Origin: Betaproteobacteria bacterium
GTDB taxonomy: Bacteria; Pseudomonadota; Gammaproteobacteria; Burkholderiales; Rhodocyclaceae
Reading direction: 5' to 3'
DNA: 5,668 nucleotides
Assembly (NCBI GenBank): GCA_028065725.1
Contig: JAPTVL010000025.1
Location: forward strand, 1-5,668
Shown here piece after piece: positions 1-5,668 of the stretch. How positions within the stretch are numbered: the first letter of the stretch is position 1; every line of letters begins with the position of its first letter. A program made the position numbers and the translations under genes. The notes beneath the pieces were generated by a model. That model saw only the letters and a list, made by a program, of their open reading frames with translations. It searched no databases and had not been told where the DNA came from.

Positions 1-79
1 CAGCCTGCAGAAGCACTCGATCGCCTTCGAACGTGCCGGCTACGGACTTCACTATGACAAGTACTACGGAGGCATCTGA
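1..79 (+). CDS. 3' end of an unidentified phage structural gene (partial)
   Basis: An open frame enters from the left edge (frame starting at base 2) and gives 25 residues ending in HYDKYYGGI before a TGA at 77-79. That stop overlaps the ATG of the next gene by one base (TGATG), and the next gene's GGAGG site lies inside this reading frame, which is typical of translationally coupled phage late genes. The fragment is too short to assign a family. Its place just before a DUF2793 protein suggests a tail or particle component, but that rests on context only. Confidence 0.6.
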   Translation, partial: SLQKHSIAFERAGYGLHYDKYYGGI

Positions 80-432
80 TGCCCGCAATCACTGACCCGA
101 ACCTGGGACTCAACTACGGCTGGACGCTCGGCGAAAGCGGCTGGGGCGCCGGCATGGATGCCAACCTGAAGCGGCTGGGCGCTGTCGTCAGCCTGTCGGT
201 CAAAGACCGCGATCTGGCCACACCACCTGCCAGCCCGGTTAACGGCGACCGTTACCTCATTCCCGCTGGCGCAACCGGCGTCTGGAGCGGCAAGACCGAT
301 CAGATCGCGGCGCGCATCGCGGGCGTCTGGGAATACCACATCCCTAAAGTCGGTTGGCTCTGCTTCATCGAGGACGAGGCAGTGCTCTCGGCCTACAAGG
401 CCACCGGCTGGAGTCCCGGCATCGCCATCTGA
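79..432 (+). CDS. DUF2793-type phage tail-associated protein
   Basis: A 117-residue protein whose central part has the DUF2793 signature: a VKDRDLATPPASPVNGDRYLI-like stretch (about residues 41-61), then GATGVWSG, an IAGVWEY strand and a PKVGWLCFIED segment. DUF2793 proteins are found in phage tail regions and gene-transfer-agent-like clusters, often near tail-fibre or receptor-binding genes; no biochemical role is established. The start is supported by GGAGG at 68-72, six bases upstream, and by the one-base overlap with the previous stop. There is no signal peptide or membrane segment, consistent with a cytoplasmically assembled virion protein. An intrinsic terminator follows 20 bases after the stop. 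The family call is from recalled motif resemblance; the tail role is context plus family knowledge. Confidence 0.85.
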   Translation: MPAITDPNLGLNYGWTLGESGWGAGMDANLKRLGAVVSLSVKDRDLATPPASPVNGDRYLIPAGATGVWSGKTDQIAARIAGVWEYHIPKVGWLCFIEDEAVLSAYKATGWSPGIAI

Positions 433-452
433 TCGCTTTCCCCTGAACCCCG

Positions 453-477
453 AAAACCCGCCCGAGTGGCGGGTTTT
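453..477. terminator. Symmetric intrinsic terminator between tail and lysis genes
   Basis: Arms AAAACCCGCC (453-462) and GGCGGGTTTT (468-477) are perfect complements over 10 bp with a 5-base loop, CGAGT. The GC-rich core is followed by a T tract on the + strand and, because of the A tract on the left, also on the - strand, so it could stop transcription both ways. It lies 20 bases after the DUF2793 stop and ends 20 bases before the next start. Its place inside a same-strand phage late region implies partial read-through, antitermination, or a separate transcript for the lysis cassette. Confidence 0.85.
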
Positions 478-497
478 GCATTTCTGGAGCCCGCCCT

Positions 498-797
498 ATG
501 ACTGACCCACAAAAACCCGCACTGGTCGACAACATGCTCCTCCTGCGCAAGGAGGACTTCGAAGACCTTCTGGATCGCGCCGCCGAACGCGGTGCCAAAC
601 GTGCCCTGGCCGATGTTGGCCTGGACGGTGACGACGCCGCCCACGACATCCGCGAACTGCGCGGCCTGCTCGATGCCTTCAACACCGCCAAGCACACCGC
701 CTGGCAGACCGTCATCAAGATGATCACCACCGGATTCCTGCTGACGTTGGTGGCGGGCGCCCTCATCAAGTTCAAGGTGTTCGGAGGTGGCCAATGA
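498..797 (+). CDS. Small C-terminally anchored membrane protein of the phage lysis cassette (DUF6127-like)
   Basis: A 99-residue protein. Residues about 14-60 form a charged, helix-prone stretch (RKEDFEDLLDRAAERGAKRAL, then DDAAHDIRELRGLLDAF). Residues about 75-91 are hydrophobic (ITTGFLLTLVAGALI), followed by a short lysine-containing tail, so it is probably a single-pass, tail-anchored inner-membrane protein. The pattern resembles DUF6127-type small proteins of proteobacterial phages, recalled from memory and not certain. GGAG at 486-489 sits eight bases before the ATG. The stop overlaps the holin start as ATGA (794-797), tying it to the lysis genes. A holin accessory or antiholin role is possible but not shown. 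It does not look like a classical Rz i-spanin, whose membrane segment is N-terminal. Confidence 0.75.
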   Translation: MTDPQKPALVDNMLLLRKEDFEDLLDRAAERGAKRALADVGLDGDDAAHDIRELRGLLDAFNTAKHTAWQTVIKMITTGFLLTLVAGALIKFKVFGGGQ

Positions 798-1270
798 TCG
801 AGACCCTTCTTGGTGGTCTGCTCGGCGGCGGGTTTCGCCTGGCACCTGAGCTGCTCAAGTGGCTCGACCGCAAGGGCGAACGCGGCCACGAGCTGTCGAT
901 GCAGGACAAGGCGCTCGAATTCGAGAAGCTACGCGGTGCGCAGCGTATGCACGAAATCGGCGCCGGAGCCGATGCGGCGTGGAACGTGGGCGCAATCGAA
1001 ACGCTGCGCGAAGCTGTTCGCACCCAAGGCGAGAAAAGTGGCGTCCGATGGGCCGACGCCCTGTCGAGCAGCGTGCGCCCCGTCATTACTTATTGGTTCA
1101 TGGCGCTGTACTGCGCTGCCAAGACGGCCGCCTTCGTTGCTGCTATTGAAGGCGGTGCCGACTGGGGTGTTGCCATCCTCCACGCATGGACTGAAGCCGA
1201 CCAAGCCCTGTGGGCCGGCGTGCTGAACTTTTGGTTCATCGGGCGCGTGTTCGACAGGGTGAAGCCATGA
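794..1270 (+). CDS. Three-transmembrane-type phage holin
   Basis: A 158-residue protein matching the 3TM-type (GTA_holin_3TM) holins, which open the inner membrane at the end of the lytic cycle so that the lysozyme reaches the cell wall. A glycine-rich hydrophobic N-terminus (about residues 2-18) precedes a long charged, probably helical middle (about 19-90). Two membrane segments follow: SSVRPVITYWFMALYCAAK (about 92-110, continuing to about 118), and LWAGVLNFWFIGR (139-151). The SxVRPxITYWF and LNFWFxGR motifs are what I associate with this family. A strong GGAGGTGG site (783-790) lies just upstream, and the start overlaps the preceding stop by four bases. Its own stop overlaps the lysozyme start. 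Function is by family; topology is read by eye. Confidence 0.85.
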   Translation: MIETLLGGLLGGGFRLAPELLKWLDRKGERGHELSMQDKALEFEKLRGAQRMHEIGAGADAAWNVGAIETLREAVRTQGEKSGVRWADALSSSVRPVITYWFMALYCAAKTAAFVAAIEGGADWGVAILHAWTEADQALWAGVLNFWFIGRVFDRVKP

Positions 1271-1743
1271 GCCAGATTCCCCAGGCAGCTATCGCCCTGG
1301 CCAAGCGCTTCGAGGGATTTCATCGAATTCCGAGGTCAGATCCGCTGCGCCGGGCCCATCCCTATATCTGCCCGGCCGGCTACTGGACGATCGGCTACGG
1401 CCGTTTGTGCAAGCCAGACCATCCACCAATCAATGAGGAAGAGGGCGAGATCTACTTGCGTCAGGACCTGCGCACAGCACTCACCGCCACGCTTCGCTAC
1501 TGCCCGGTGCTGGCCGCTGAACCAGAGGAGCGACTCGCGGCCATCGTCGACTTCACCTTCAACCTCGGTGCGGGACGGCTTCAGACGTCGACGTTGCGGC
1601 GGCGGATCAATCAGCGGGACTGGCATGGTGCGGGCAAGGAGCTGCGGCGCTGGGTCTATGGCGGCGGAAAGATTCTGCCGGGATTGGTTACGCGGCGGGA
1701 GGCCGAGGCGTCCTTGATGCTGCGTGGGATGGTCCCAGGCTAA
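1267..1743 (+). CDS. Phage lysozyme (endolysin), GH24 family
   Basis: A 158-residue muramidase of the T4/P22 lysozyme type, cutting the glycan strand of peptidoglycan during host lysis. The probable catalytic residues are Glu16 in KRFEGF, Cys35 in YICPAG (the Asp/Cys position) and Thr41 in WTIGYG. The C-terminal half has the typical VDFTFNLGAGRLQTSTLRR and GLVTRREAE segments. The Glu-to-Cys distance is longer than the usual eight residues of the family because of an insert (RIPRSDPLRRAH). There is no hydrophobic N-terminus or signal-anchor, so it should stay in the cytoplasm until the adjacent holin opens the membrane. I chose the ATG at 1267 because it overlaps the holin stop (ATGA) and has AGGG at 1256-1259. 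An in-frame ATG at 1210 would add 19 residues encoded within the holin gene and is unlikely. Confidence 0.93.
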   Translation: MSQIPQAAIALAKRFEGFHRIPRSDPLRRAHPYICPAGYWTIGYGRLCKPDHPPINEEEGEIYLRQDLRTALTATLRYCPVLAAEPEERLAAIVDFTFNLGAGRLQTSTLRRRINQRDWHGAGKELRRWVYGGGKILPGLVTRREAEASLMLRGMVPG

Positions 1744-1771
1744 CCGGTCCAATCGGTCCCGCAAGCCGCAA

Positions 1772-1812
1772 GTGCATGCACCAAGAGAATATATGATGTA
1801 GAATATGCTCTA
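1772..1812 (+). promoter_or_regulatory. Putative promoter/operator of the XRE-DUF5131 operon
   Basis: The gap after the lysozyme gene is visibly AT-richer than its surroundings. It holds a perfect 10-bp palindrome GTGCATGCAC (1772-1781), two -10-like hexamers, TATGAT (1792-1797) and TAGAAT (1799-1804), and a 7-bp direct repeat AGAATAT (1786-1792 and 1800-1806). An imperfect dyad TAGAATATGCTCTA spans 1799-1812. No good -35 box is seen at 17 bases from either hexamer, so an activator or weak promoter is likely. The palindrome sits where the -35 element would be, a natural place for autoregulation by the downstream HTH protein. This is inference from layout. Confidence 0.4.
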
Positions 1813-1833
1813 GGTGACTTTTTTGGTGTTGTG

Positions 1834-2172
1834 ATGGCGGCCTTCGAAAGCGTAGAAGAACTCATCCGGGCGGCGCGTAACGGGCGCAGCCAGAAGGAAT
1901 TCGCTGACTTACTGGAGGTCGATCAGTCGATGGTTAGCAAGTACGAAAGGGGTAAGGCCAGTCCGCCGATCACTGTCATCAACCGGTGTATGCGTCTGGT
2001 GCATACGGCTGAGAGCGAGGCGACTCCGACAGCGGAACAGCTCGCTGAACGCGTTCGCGTGACCTTGGCCGACCCCGACTTGGCGCAGGTTCGCTCAGCG
2101 CTGTCCCGATTGGTGGACGCCTTCGCGTCCGAACATGCACAGCCCCGTTCGGCGGGCGCTGCGCTTAAATGA
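1834..2172 (+). CDS. XRE-family helix-turn-helix transcriptional regulator
   Basis: A 112-residue protein with an N-terminal Cro/C1-type HTH. A first helix (VEELIRAARNG, about 7-17) is followed by SQKEFADLLEV (19-29), then the recognition helix and turn DQSMVSKYERGKASPP (30-45), a standard XRE pattern. The C-terminal part (about 60-112) is a helix-prone charged stretch that may dimerise. A GTG at 1831 directly precedes the ATG at 1834. I prefer the ATG because GGTG at 1825-1828 is better spaced to it, though the ribosome site is weak either way. The DUF5131 gene begins 14 bases after the stop, so the two are probably co-transcribed. It likely controls this cassette, perhaps through the palindrome upstream. 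Whether it is a cargo regulator or a remnant of the phage repressor system cannot be told here. Confidence 0.88.
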   Translation: MAAFESVEELIRAARNGRSQKEFADLLEVDQSMVSKYERGKASPPITVINRCMRLVHTAESEATPTAEQLAERVRVTLADPDLAQVRSALSRLVDAFASEHAQPRSAGAALK

Positions 2173-2186
2173 ATTAGGAGGCCAAC

Positions 2187-2939
2187 ATGGCGACGCAATC
2201 AACCATCGAATGGACGGAGCAAACTTGGAATCCGACTACCGGATGCACCAAGGTTTCGCCTGGCTGCAAACACTGCTATGCCGAAGTGATGGCGCGTCGG
2301 CTGCATGCGATGGGCGCTCCCGGCTACGAGAACGAGTTTCAGCTCACTTTGCACGAGAACCGGCTTGAACAGCCACTGACGCGAAAGAAGCCGACCGTGT
2401 ACTTCGTCAACAGCATGAGCGACCTGTTTCACGAAGACGTGCCCGACAAGTTTCTCGACCGCGTGTTCTCGGTCATTGAGGCGACGCCACATCACACCTA
2501 TCAGATTCTCACCAAGCGTGCCGAGCGGCTGCCAGAGTATTTCGCGAGACGCGCCTGCCCACAAAACGTCTGGCTAGGGGTATCCGTGGAAGACAAGAAA
2601 TACGGTGTGCCCCGCATCGATTACCTGCGCAGGGTAGACGCGTACATACGTTTCCTCTCGGTAGAGCCGTTGCTTGAAGATCTGGGGCATCTCAACCTGT
2701 GCGATATCCACTGGGTGATCGTCGGTGGCGAGTCAGGCCACAAGGCTCGACCCATGCGCGAAGAGTGGGTAGCAAACGTACAGGCGCAGGCCGAGGACGC
2801 CGGCGCGGCGTTTTTCTTCAAACAGTGGGGAGGCTGGGGGTCCGACGGCGTCAAGCGCCACAAAAAGGCGAACGGACGTGTCTTCCGTGGCCGCACCTGG
2901 GACGACTATCCGGATGCAGTGGCGACCACCCTAGGCTAG
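2187..2939 (+). CDS. DUF5131 (phage Gp37/Gp68) family protein with three-Cys motif
   Basis: A 250-residue protein recognisable as the phage Gp37/Gp68 family (PF07505, DUF5131). The N-terminus carries the three-cysteine motif TGCTKVSPGCKHCYAE (Cys20, Cys27, Cys30; spacing C-x6-C-x2-C). Ordered strand-like motifs follow: VYFVNSMSDLFHEDVP (71-86), YQILTKRAERL (105-115), VWLGVSVED (128-136), FLSVEPLLEDL (156-166), WVIVGGESGHKARPM (176-190) and FFFKQWGGWG (209-218). The cysteine cluster followed by repeated beta-strand motifs recalls radical-SAM barrels with a 4Fe-4S site, but the cysteine spacing differs from the classical C-x3-C-x2-C, so this is inference. AGGAGG at 2176-2181, five bases before the ATG, is the strongest ribosome site in the right half of the window. 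Its stop interlocks with that of the convergent tcmP, its known family partner. Confidence 0.92.
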   Translation: MATQSTIEWTEQTWNPTTGCTKVSPGCKHCYAEVMARRLHAMGAPGYENEFQLTLHENRLEQPLTRKKPTVYFVNSMSDLFHEDVPDKFLDRVFSVIEATPHHTYQILTKRAERLPEYFARRACPQNVWLGVSVEDKKYGVPRIDYLRRVDAYIRFLSVEPLLEDLGHLNLCDIHWVIVGGESGHKARPMREEWVANVQAQAEDAGAAFFFKQWGGWGSDGVKRHKKANGRVFRGRTWDDYPDAVATTLG

Positions 2940-3763
2940 AAATCGAGCTTCCCCTGGCCTTCGACATTGGAGGCCGTGGCCCAGAACTTGTGTGCCAGAT
3001 CGTGCTTTGCCGCGAGCAGCAGCCAGTACAGCGGCTGATTCTTGCTGCCCGTGATTAGCTTCATTTCGGCAGATGGCCATACCCCCAGATTGGCAACCTG
3101 ATCGCGCCAATACTGGAATACGCGTTGCCGAATCTCGTTTTGCCCCCGCACGATGTCCACCTTGTCGCGCCATCCCGGCGCGAATGTATCAAATGCTGAT
3201 TCTTCCGCTGTCGCGTTGCTTATCAGATTGCGCTGCAAATCCATCTGATTCACATGAACAAGCATGTCGATACGTCTCAGCGCGGAAAGCGAGTTGATGA
3301 TATCGAAGTCCAGCGCTTCGAGATTGAACGGATCGAGGAACGCGAAATGCAGCCCATAGGGATTCAGTCTCCCAACAATCTGGCGCACGGCCTGCACGGC
3401 GGCACCGTCGATCTCAACAACCGGCGCGCCCAACTGCCGTAAGCGGTTGGCTGCGGATTCCCGCCGTTGAACGTCAAGGTCGCCGATAAAAACCTGGGTA
3501 AATGGCGCCCCGCCGTCGCGACTCTTCTTCCAGGCTGCCACCACCCCCCCGTCAATCCATTCCCCGGTATCTCGAACGCGGCATCGTCCCGGGCCGCAAA
3601 ACGGGTCGATGTATGTAGCTCCAGCCTTACCTTGACCGATCCACTGAGTGCGAACGGCGCGGGAGATGTCGATGTATCGACAGAGGTAGTCGTGCTTTTC
3701 CTTTGCCCAGACGCCCACCTCTTCGGCAGGCAGACCATCGTCTCCATCGATCAGTTTTCCCAT
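2936..3763 (-). CDS. tcmP: Three-Cys-motif partner protein TcmP
   Basis: A 275-residue protein matching TcmP (TIGR04474), a family defined by occurring beside three-Cys-motif Gp37/Gp68 proteins, as here. Visible features are the N-terminal WAKEKHDYLCRYIDI (19-33), YIDPFCGPGR (51-60; resembles methyltransferase motif I), FIGDLD (92-97; acidic end of a second strand) and LHFAFLDPFN (138-147; resembles motif IV, D/N-P-P-F). Together they suggest a Rossmann-type, possibly SAM-binding, fold; activity and substrate are unknown. The ATG at 3763-3761 is preferred: AGGA lies three bases upstream with further purines before it. A TTG at 3787 would add eight residues. The gene lies 111 bases downstream of the DUF262 gene on the same strand, and its TAG stop shares CTAG (2936-2939) with the DUF5131 stop. 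A run of seven G on the coding strand (3544-3550) falls inside the frame. Confidence 0.92.
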   Translation of the reverse strand: MGKLIDGDDGLPAEEVGVWAKEKHDYLCRYIDISRAVRTQWIGQGKAGATYIDPFCGPGRCRVRDTGEWIDGGVVAAWKKSRDGGAPFTQVFIGDLDVQRRESAANRLRQLGAPVVEIDGAAVQAVRQIVGRLNPYGLHFAFLDPFNLEALDFDIINSLSALRRIDMLVHVNQMDLQRNLISNATAEESAFDTFAPGWRDKVDIVRGQNEIRQRVFQYWRDQVANLGVWPSAEMKLITGSKNQPLYWLLLAAKHDLAHKFWATASNVEGQGKLDF

Positions 3764-3804
3764 CTTTCCTTTCCCACATCGCTGCAATCAGAAATCGCTG
3801 GAAA

Positions 3805-3826
3805 GCGCCTGGCGTCTTCGCCGCGC
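3805..3826 (-). other. GC-rich hairpin in the DUF262-tcmP gap
   Basis: The 111-base gap contains GGCG (3811-3814) and CGCC (3819-3822) around a 4-base loop, extended by GCGC (3805-3808) and GCGC (3823-3826) across a 2-base bulge. Read on the minus strand the hairpin is followed only by a three-T run, so it is a poor intrinsic terminator. It could be an attenuator or mRNA stabiliser between the two genes, or chance in GC-rich DNA. The rest of the gap holds only a faint extended -10-like TGATATGAA (minus strand, about 3833-3841), and no clear -35. Confidence 0.3.
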
Positions 3827-3874
3827 AGCGCGTTCATATCAGACGGGCAGCACGTATGTGTCGGCCCAAGTAAG

Positions 3875-5668
3875 TTACACCTCAATCGGAGAAATTCTCC
3901 AAACATCCCGCGCCAGCGCCATAAGCATGCCGTGCCGCTTCTCGATCGATGCGGCATCCCAAGCGGGGAACGCTTCCAATTTCTCGTTGATCCTGGAAAT
4001 GGACGTGTTCTGCCCGACACTCGTCAGCTCGACCAAGCTACGCGTGAGGTAGTTGCTGCTTTTGCGGTACTCGGCCTGTTTCGCCGCGTAGAAGTCATTA
4101 CCCGCAACGATATTGATTGGCTTCTCCAACAGAGTCAGATTGCCCAGCCGGTTCTTGTAGTCGTCATAGACGGCAGTCGGATTTTCAGTCGCCCACTTTT
4201 CCCTCAGCTCTGTGGTTGGCGTGTCCGGCAGAATGTGCTCGATTTCGAGGCTGGTATAAGGCTCCAGGCTGCCGGGCGATTTCACACCGTTGAATGCCAT
4301 GTCAACGTGCTGGGTCAGCCGCGCCAGCAGGTAGCGCGTCCGGTATTGCTGCATGGTGTACAGCGAGAAGCGCTTCAGCGCATCCGAAAGCTCCGGTGAC
4401 TTCGCCGCCATGTTGCTCTCGAACCGGTCCGCGACAAACGCGTTGAGCGCAACCCGCTGCTTCACCGGGTCCGTGACCGCCGCAATTGTCCTAAGCTCGT
4501 CGGCCCACAGTGAGAAATTCCGCTCCAGATCCTTGGTCGGCGTCTTGGTGAAGATGTAATAGAACAGGAAGCTCTCGAGCTGGGTGACGAAGTGATCGAA
4601 CAGCGGCTTGGGCAAGGCAGCAGATGCCAGCAGCAATACGTAGTGCAGGCTGAACGCGCCACCAGCCAGTCGTTTCAGGCTGTCCATCGCAAGGCTCGGT
4701 TTGCCGTCGTTGCCGAGGCCATTGCCAAAGGCGAGGTAGTGCTCGACGCTACGAATGACCTTCCGCACGAACTCAAATGGCTTGTTCGCGTAGTCGCACA
4801 GCGCCGCGTTCTCCTTGTCGACAAACCAGTCGTAGATCTCATCCTCCCGCACTACGGCATCACCACGGTCGTTCTTGATGACATAGTTGGCCATCAGGAA
4901 GTAGCGCAGGAACCGCAGCGGCTTTTCCTTTTCCTTTTCCAGCGGCTTGGTGATCTTCTTCCACTCATCCTTGAGCTGGGTGAACTGCGTCTGCTTGACC
5001 TGCGTGAACAGCAGGTTCTTCAGCAAATCCATCGGGTTCAGGCCGACGCCGCGCTCGTTGATGGTCTCGAAGATCTTCAGCGCGCTGCTCACATCGGTAG
5101 AAATTTGGATGAACACGACGTTGTTGGCCAGGTAGCCCCAATATTTCTTCAGCTTGGGCGCGTCGTCATAGTTGTCCTTCAAGTACCGATACAGAGTGCC
5201 GTAGGCGTTGACCAGGTTCTCCAGTGATCCAAAGCTGGGAATGCCAGCAGCCTGAATGCCGGCGCGCACTGACTGCGGATCGGTGTCCAGCTCTACCAGT
5301 TTGGTCATGACGTCGCCGGCGTTCTCGTAGCGCGGCTCCAGCTTCAAACTGGTCCTTGTCTCGCCGTCGCTGTCGGTGTAGCTGGTCGAGATCAGGCCGC
5401 TGACGACCTGCCGCTGTGGCTCACCCTGAAACACATGCTTCAATGCGCAGAGCAGCAGGAAGAAGGTGGTCAGACGCTGCTGACCGTCGATCACCTCATA
5501 GTGATTCTTCTGATCGGTCGGCGACACCAGCACAGTGCCGATGAAGTACTCCCGCGTCGAACCCGCATCGATCTGCTCATTGATGTCCTCAAGGAGCTGG
5601 TGCACTTCCTTGTCCGTCCAGACGTATTCGCGCTGGTAGTCCGGGACGATGTAGAAGCACTCCCTGAA
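3875..5668 (-). CDS. DUF262/DUF1524 (GmrSD-type) protein, probable type IV restriction enzyme, 5'-partial
   Basis: The frame is open to the right edge, giving 597 residues that begin inside the N-terminal domain; the true start is outside. Visible-residue numbering: YQREYVW (11-17), YFIGTVLV (41-48) and IDGQQRLTT (60-68; the DGQQR motif of DUF262, at 5488-5474) define the GmrS-like part. A conserved FETINERG...DLLKN segment follows near 200-216. The C-terminal DUF1524 (GmrD-like, HNH-type nuclease) part has EIEHILP (His478, at 4235-4237) and NRLGNLTLL (506-514). In GmrSD-type enzymes the DGQQR domain is linked to nucleotide use and the H-x-x-P/N region to DNA cutting, often of modified phage DNA; SspE and BrxU share this architecture. 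A GTG at 5605 is not the start, because YQREYVW lies upstream of it in frame. The gene is followed by tcmP on the same strand. Confidence 0.92.
   Translation of the reverse strand, partial: FRECFYIVPDYQREYVWTDKEVHQLLEDINEQIDAGSTREYFIGTVLVSPTDQKNHYEVIDGQQRLTTFFLLLCALKHVFQGEPQRQVVSGLISTSYTDSDGETRTSLKLEPRYENAGDVMTKLVELDTDPQSVRAGIQAAGIPSFGSLENLVNAYGTLYRYLKDNYDDAPKLKKYWGYLANNVVFIQISTDVSSALKIFETINERGVGLNPMDLLKNLLFTQVKQTQFTQLKDEWKKITKPLEKEKEKPLRFLRYFLMANYVIKNDRGDAVVREDEIYDWFVDKENAALCDYANKPFEFVRKVIRSVEHYLAFGNGLGNDGKPSLAMDSLKRLAGGAFSLHYVLLLASAALPKPLFDHFVTQLESFLFYYIFTKTPTKDLERNFSLWADELRTIAAVTDPVKQRVALNAFVADRFESNMAAKSPELSDALKRFSLYTMQQYRTRYLLARLTQHVDMAFNGVKSPGSLEPYTSLEIEHILPDTPTTELREKWATENPTAVYDDYKNRLGNLTLLEKPINIVAGNDFYAAKQAEYRKSSNYLTRSLVELTSVGQNTSISRINEKLEAFPAWDAASIEKRHGMLMALARDVWRISPIEV
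4916..4948. repeat. In-frame hexanucleotide repeat flanked by 9-bp direct repeats
   Basis: Three tandem CTTTTC units (4922-4939) lie between two copies of CAGCGGCTT (4916-4924 and 4940-4948). On the coding (minus) strand this reads as the charged segment PLEKEKEKPL in the DUF262/DUF1524 protein. Because the unit is six bases, gain or loss of copies would add or remove a Lys-Glu pair without breaking the frame. It probably lies in a surface loop or linker between the two domains. Confidence 0.6.

Follow-up and report, generated by a model that had tools for sequence, protein, structure and literature searches.

The window analyzed here, a stretch of 5,668 nucleotides corresponding to positions 1 to 5,668 of contig JAPTVL010000025.1 from a member of the Rhodocyclaceae (assembly GCA_028065725.1), encodes two sets of genes behind the endolysin gene of a phage: a trio composed of an XRE-type regulator, a DUF5131 protein and the methyltransferase-like protein TcmP, and a GmrSD-type nuclease. 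The regulator (XRE/HTH_3; 1831..2172, plus strand, with its ATG at 1834; PF01381, 42.5 bits) lies 15 bp ahead of the gene for DUF5131 (2187..2939, plus strand), which is convergent with that of TcmP (2936..3763, minus strand); the stop codons of the two overlap at 2936-2939, leaving no space for a terminator between them. A gap of 111 bp (3764..3874) separates the ATG of TcmP from the stop codon of the GmrSD-type gene (3875..5668, minus strand), which fuses DUF262 and DUF1524 domains and of which 597 residues are encoded in the window. This gene order, described in an initial annotation, is borne out by open reading frames and profile scans. That annotation had further suggested that DUF5131/TcmP and the GmrSD-type protein form a matched modifier and nuclease; the comparisons presented below reveal that the trio and the GmrSD gene are separate modules that occur independently of each other.

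Independence of the trio and the GmrSD-type gene

Among the relatives of the window phage (loci are designated by L numbers, and genomes by G numbers), two carry the GmrSD gene alone: L103 and L104 align by blastn with positions 1-1706 (96.2% identity) and 3895-5668 (93.4%), the trio segment in between (1707..3894) being absent and replaced by approximately 287 bp. Three others (L012, L086 and L100) are homologous to the trio of the window as far as the start of TcmP (3763-3764) and then diverge, so that the 111-bp gap marks the junction of two modules. A total of 427 loci, which overlap in part and include some near-duplicate contigs (L220/L221, L269/L272), were compared; DUF5131 is encoded in 182, TcmP in 124, and GmrSD in 42, while none carries both modules. 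Neither DUF5131 nor TcmP was detected in the 28 GmrSD loci of viral contigs.

A cargo-neutral sample was obtained through the phrog_6637 protein (794..1270, plus strand; 197.6 bits), which belongs to a PHROG of unknown function and serves as a neutral marker of the phage family. In the best 80 of its 362 relatives in viral contigs, five loci include DUF5131 and eight include GmrSD (seven close relatives, one distant), again never together. Sequence extends at least 2.5 kb past the marker in 44 of the 80, two of which carry DUF5131 and eight GmrSD. The presence of DUF5131 in only five of these phages indicates that the trio is not essential.

At the level of whole genomes, a match to PF03235 (DUF262) was found in five of 46 TcmP/DUF5131 genomes or records, all five being among 18 genomes; in four of them the match lies on other contigs, and Comamonas is the fifth, where TcmP shares a contig with it at distances of 46 and 121 kb. 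The same family is present in 136 of 398 Pseudomonadota genomes, including 10 of the 24 that encode TcmP, in which every placed match, among those listed, is on a contig other than that of TcmP (one of five in G110 is unplaced). The enrichment of GmrSD genes near TcmP/DUF5131 pairs, which the initial annotation had named beforehand as its test, was thus not observed among the matches listed, with Comamonas as the sole co-carrier and with the limit that tblastn searches using the window sequences miss distant GmrSD proteins; this lack of enrichment does not in itself amount to avoidance.

The DUF5131/TcmP module

The order lysis genes-XRE-DUF5131-TcmP is kept in the closest viral relatives and is seen in many phage loci, and one contig of 4768 bases is 99.4% identical to the window over positions 1-3209. 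Relatives of DUF5131 are encoded at 77 loci in viral contigs, close relatives of TcmP at seven, and 18 loci in genome contigs encode TcmP relatives. In this last group DUF5131 was counted directly behind TcmP (within ~40 bp) in 14 of the 18, less the exceptions L090, L091 and L096-L099, and with L095 scored as adjacent although the contig end cuts its DUF5131. An open frame of 1-2 kb separates the two genes in L091, L097 and L098, in L099 they are 7 kb apart, and DUF5131 was not seen at L090 and L096. The frame that intervenes in L091 and L097 encodes 379/380 residues, suggesting an insertion into the module, and TcmP itself appears to be split in Thermomonas (L097:8771-10687, L091:10766-11905).

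By tblastn, the pair was identified in 71 of 90 loci, in convergent orientation in 52 and codirectional in 19. Contig ends must be kept in mind for such counts: many contigs are truncated by IMG/VR provirus trimming, either at the endolysin or at DUF5131 or TcmP, and in eight of the 17 listed loci that lack TcmP the contig ends within 300 bp of DUF5131. In the 398 Pseudomonadota genomes, TcmP exceeds the cut-off in 24 (27 places) and DUF5131 in 40, and each of the 27 TcmP places has DUF5131 no more than 1.5 kb away, in agreement with the pairing proposed at the outset; in the other direction, TcmP is found within 2.5 kb of 24 of the 47 DUF5131 places, G272 (41 positions only) and G383 (under the cut-off) having been left out before these were counted. 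TcmP is located less than 150 bp behind a codirectional gene in 12 of 18 loci. Operons beside it include HmaB/HmaC-like genes with a PLD protein, as well as a TIR protein together with a CBASS cyclase (398 bits); further upstream in L089 lies the Thoeris gene ThsA (664 bits).

DUF5131 matches PF07505 over residues 4-242 with 364.2 bits, against a Pfam gathering score of 28.9, and three of its cysteines (C20, C27 and C30) are invariant in all 42 aligned sequences. Its structure model displays a radical SAM fold resembling those of spore photoproduct lyase and RlmN, with a partial TIM barrel. The canonical spacing of the radical SAM cluster cysteines is CX3CX2C, and the CX6CX2C spacing of DUF5131 differs in this respect from that of spore photoproduct lyase, RlmN and viperin; the protein is therefore termed radical-SAM-like, without being assigned to the radical SAM superfamily. 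Its score against TIGR04471 (radical SAM mobile pair protein A) is 91.8 bits, far below the cut-off of 355, and it is thus not a member of that family. A PDB sequence search with DUF5131 gave no significant match, and literature searches did not find DUF5131 by name in the papers available. In a collection of 50,697 phage records, DUF5131 is present in 161, many of them of Mycobacterium and Gordonia phages, while a search limited to the TcmP type of the window detected no relative at E 1e-5. DUF5131 may have a different role in these 161 records.

TcmP reaches 180.7 bits against TIGR04474 (NCBIfam cut-off, 53), a family defined as the partner of a three-Cys-motif protein, and in the window it adjoins DUF5131. 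Its structure model is that of an RlmJ-like methyltransferase, a Rossmann fold with AdoMet motif I. RlmJ is the N6-methyltransferase of A2030 in 23S rRNA, and DPPY constitutes motif IV of N6-adenine methyltransferases of its type. In TcmP, D144-P145 is invariant in 37 of 37 sequences and followed by F or Y, the second proline being absent. The predicted folds of the two proteins agree with the radical-SAM-like and methyltransferase-like nature initially ascribed to them. No match to TcmP was returned by a PDB sequence search; three-Cys-motif partner proteins are named in tables only in those portions of the literature that were available, and TcmP as a search term is swamped by other meanings.

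Among the candidate systems listed in PADLOC, PDC-M30 and PDC-M41 come closest to this pair. Their B models are strongly matched by DUF5131 (PDC-M30B, 379 bits; PDC-M41B, 376 bits), whereas their A models are matched only weakly by TcmP (PDC-M41A, 31 bits; PDC-M30A, 18 bits), whose subtype these models therefore cover poorly; PADLOC records no activity for either system. PDC-M30, described as uncharacterized in the available portion of one survey, was predicted there in 32 of 100 P. aeruginosa strains, of which 68.8% were phage resistant (PMC10855318), a relationship that is a correlation only. Other TcmP subtypes occur in the same slot, with 285 bits for PDC-M41A in L014 and 79 bits for PDC-M30A in L030. 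At least three subtypes appear to partner DUF5131 (L085-L102, L009-L051): the short, convergent type of the window; c7, a divergent type that is also short and convergent and a strong match to PDC-M41A; and c26, which is long, carries a GMT-wHTH domain and matches PDC-M30A. Two gene clusters in the slot that were first taken for non-TcmP partners proved to belong to the TcmP family as well (six proteins, 158-209 bits).

The GmrSD-type gene and its neighbors

The GmrSD-type protein exceeds the Pfam cut-offs for both of its domains, with 141 bits for DUF262 (PF03235; cut-off 33.2) and 73.9 bits for DUF1524 (PF07510; cut-off 23), and a PDB sequence search identified a DUF262 protein (E 2.7e-9). 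Its frame runs past the edge of the window, 14 further N-terminal residues being present in 26 of 27 aligned relatives and 42 in L115. The motifs DGQQR (residue 61) and EHILP (residue 477) are invariant in 28 of 28 aligned sequences. In PADLOC the protein matches Orf5 (295 bits) and HEC-06 (223 bits), names that denote candidate or system components only, HEC presumably standing for Hma-embedded candidate. GmrSD and BrxU, type IV enzymes, share with it the fusion of DUF262 and DUF1524, the DGQQR and HNH-type motifs and an association with BREX or modification systems, and the accessible text on these enzymes names DGQQR, DHIYP-type and RLFDS motifs (PMC8565348). In the window DGQQR is exact, EHILP stands where DHIYP is expected, and the HNH-type motif is intact; RLFDS was not found as such in this protein, in which a related IFETINERG can be recognized by eye.

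Among the 21 loci where an upstream frame is present, 18 have the GmrSD gene following a codirectional one at a distance of 67 bp or less; seven further loci end too early for this count. These upstream genes belong to BREX-, type I-, type III- or Hma-like operons. As named from blastp clusters, with one or a few members scanned per cluster, they include an SNF2 helicase with Hma/BREX-like similarity beside an HmaB-like methyltransferase, BrxC-PglZ, HsdM-HsdR, a type III Res protein, a DUF1156 methyltransferase with a PLD helicase, and a capP-like M78 protease. A similar operon is thus expected beyond position 5668. Unlike what is described for GmrSD and BrxU in the text available, a single closely conserved GmrSD family is here common to several unrelated operons and to two slots of one phage family: the 28 loci in viral contigs comprise 19 that adjoin relatives of the lysis genes, four that adjoin an integrase, and five that adjoin neither. 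Since GmrSD mostly follows other, modification-based operons and TcmP follows codirectional genes, both genes lie at the edge of a changing cargo.

The phage, its ends and its cargo slots

The left end of a relative of the window phage encodes a serine integrase (phrog_95, 355 bits), an anti-repressor and a primase. PF07508 was found in six of the seven prophage-bearing genomes searched, while the tyrosine integrase family PF00589 is absent from all 10 virus records and has many matches elsewhere in the seven bacterial genomes. A Mu-like phage, considered because of the sizes of the left-end genes, was rejected in view of the serine integrase and of the lack of a transposase match among ten proteins in a PHROG scan.

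The left phage region begins at a common motif, CCACCA...GCCCAACC...GGTTGGGC, at the 3' end of tRNA-Phe (L344, L113, L324, L368) or tRNA-Ala (L346, L361). In Thermomonas this motif recurs in direct orientation 63.45 kb away, past the cargo and within a 253-bp repeat, and in L287 it recurs approximately 9.3 kb past the marker gene. Differing systems are located behind the same lysis genes, with end motifs outside the cargo in these two relatives, as in a hotspot; the neighboring systems, together with the phage genes of relatives, also support the prophage and defense setting recognized initially. When 60 relatives were searched with the DNA to the right of the Thermomonas prophage, short repeats only were obtained, and no empty site. 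The repeats of Thermomonas sp. S9 (L324:12708-12972 and L327:10161-10427), beside tRNA-Phe, bound an element of 63.5 kb that comprises the phage and right-end cargo of about 17 kb.

A second GmrSD slot exists beside the serine integrase. In L343, L344 and L113 the gene is placed between the integrase and the end of the phage on the tRNA side. All that L346 lacks relative to L343 is the GmrSD stretch (L343 10851-12724), with a clean junction. Comamonas carries two integrases that are 94% and 88% identical to that of the relative, each with a GmrSD gene ~1.3 kb upstream, whose products are 89% and 87% identical to that of the window. The Comamonas granuli contig (L344:7532-17071, L343:6502-16000) appears to harbor two prophages of this family in tandem within a single tRNA-Phe, and the motif copy in L343, the second one, is without a tRNA; in each prophage, GmrSD lies between the region of an M78/capP-like protease and the serine integrase. 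This protease (187-194 bits; L321:3123-4049, L113:3499-4431) is consistently encoded at the left end of these phages, and in L113, L121 and L122 its gene is the one directly upstream of the integrase-side GmrSD.

Among the closest known counterparts are the hotspots of P2 and P4 phages, which, in the text available, likewise hold high-turnover defense cargo next to a conserved gene close to the end of the phage, in loci of ~1-5 kb (Rousset et al. 2022, PMC9122126). The present slot differs from these in lying behind the endolysin of serine-integrase, tRNA-integrating phages, and in its size: in Thermomonas it measures about 17 kb between TcmP and the far end motif, and other relatives house complete BREX, type I or type III operons. 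Among the papers listed by literature searches on hotspots and lysis genes, none concerns this phage family.

Interpretation and alternatives

The window is probably best understood as the beginning of a cargo region at the right end of a temperate phage, whose ends would be those of its relatives. Within this phage-borne defense hotspot, a nucleic-acid-modification module of two enzymes would lie side by side with an independent type IV nuclease gene. Such a phage would employ its serine integrase to integrate at tRNA 3' ends and would store defense genes between the endolysin and the right attachment site. In the first module, the repressor-like XRE regulator could repress DUF5131, and upon infection or induction the radical-SAM-like DUF5131 and the RlmJ-like TcmP may both modify the same nucleic acid, thereby marking or disabling it; the second would be an NTP-dependent nuclease that cuts modified phage DNA. 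The substrate of DUF5131/TcmP is judged somewhat more apt to be RNA than DNA, since RlmN and RlmJ, which both modify rRNA, are among the enzymes closest in fold, a preference kept weak by the fact that spore photoproduct lyase acts on DNA. A more specific proposal, in which the two enzymes would act in sequence on tRNA, rRNA or phage RNA under XRE control and block phage translation, is rather unlikely and is put forward tentatively. To our knowledge, RNA modification by a radical-SAM-type and an RlmJ-like enzyme is absent from known defense mechanisms.

Several observations weigh against the reading of two modules in a phage-borne hotspot. TcmP and GmrSD are codirectional and only 111 bp apart, making co-transcription possible, and the gene upstream of GmrSD lies beyond the window. 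In one Comamonas prophage the trio and a GmrSD gene (89% identical) occur together, at opposite ends and 46 kb apart. The end motif was looked for in the window and not found, as is expected if the cargo continues past it, and the 253-bp end repeats in Thermomonas are only 81% identical. Lastly, 23 chromosomal DUF5131/TcmP loci exhibit no clear enrichment of defense genes among their neighbors (first 25 of 74 families); the 91 frames around them include some that are TcmP itself, and 13 carry a GMT-wHTH domain, which is TcmP's own extension where checked. The role of the DUF5131/TcmP pair in defense is hence that of a candidate, resting on the phage hotspot setting and on its candidate status in PADLOC.

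The close spacing of TcmP and GmrSD, together with the Comamonas prophage and the action of GmrSD enzymes on modified DNA reported in the accessible text of PMC8565348, would also suit a single self/non-self system in which DUF5131/TcmP mark a nucleic acid and the adjacent nuclease is matched to the mark. GmrSD was rejected as a partner of DUF5131/TcmP on account of the 427 loci, none of which has both modules, and of L103/L104, which lack the trio; with close relatives carrying one or the other alone, and with the placed PF03235 matches of the 24 TcmP genomes on other contigs, a single system must be considered highly improbable. It is also very unlikely that the genes form a block by location only, the phage having integrated into a chromosomal defense island with GmrSD as a host gene. 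The many viral contigs that stop at the endolysin, DUF5131 or TcmP, and the presence of GmrSD at either prophage end with its 3' end facing the phage, would fit such a scenario, but a host gene flanking the attachment site was rejected in view of the integrase-side position of GmrSD within the phage, of its clean absence from L346, and of the motif beyond the cargo, whose recurrence in Thermomonas and L287 argues largely in the same sense. Finally, the trio could serve the phage itself rather than the lysogen, either by modifying the phage's DNA or RNA for self-protection or as a counter-defense against host restriction. Nucleic acids can be substrates of enzymes with either fold, and many of the 161 phage records with DUF5131 but no TcmP of the window type derive from laboratory-grown Gordonia and Mycobacterium phages; against this stand the location of the trio in a cargo slot amid defense systems, its dispensability as judged from the 80 sampled phages, and the listing of this type of pair by PADLOC as a defense candidate, leaving a phage-serving role unlikely, though far from negligible.

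The preferred reading of a modification module beside an independent nuclease gene turns a DUF5131/TcmP candidate without described function into a testable biochemical proposal, that of a radical-SAM-like enzyme paired with an RlmJ-like one, for which natural knock-in and knock-out phage pairs exist. The large defense region could readily be mined for new systems through its endolysin neighbor and end motif, and the reading corrects an attractive but mistaken grouping, given that neighboring defense genes in such a hotspot need not form one system. Should the RNA-modification proposal be true, the phage would keep this module within a cargo region of unusual size, next to a nuclease gene common to otherwise unrelated modification-based systems.

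Phage backbone genes in the window

Scans of the window for promoters and terminators gave nothing beyond shuffled sequence, and an Rfam scan gave no match. The endolysin (1267..1743, plus strand; a phage lysozyme, PF00959, 106.8 bits; phrog_7, 152.8 bits) is the last conserved gene ahead of the cargo. The placement of the trio directly after a lysis cassette, as originally worded, is correct as to position, and the order recurs in relatives; as for the cassette, the endolysin is the only lysis gene named by profile, the two genes that precede it matching PHROGs of unknown function. These are the gene of the phrog_6637 marker and that of a DUF6127 protein of the phage backbone near the endolysin (498..797, plus strand; PF19622, 95.9 bits; phrog_10540, 121 bits), upstream of which lies a gene for a DUF2793 phage protein (79..432, plus strand; PF10983, 92.7 bits) with tail-fiber-like PHROG matches (phrog_5363, 179 bits; phrog_35360, tail fiber, 100 bits).

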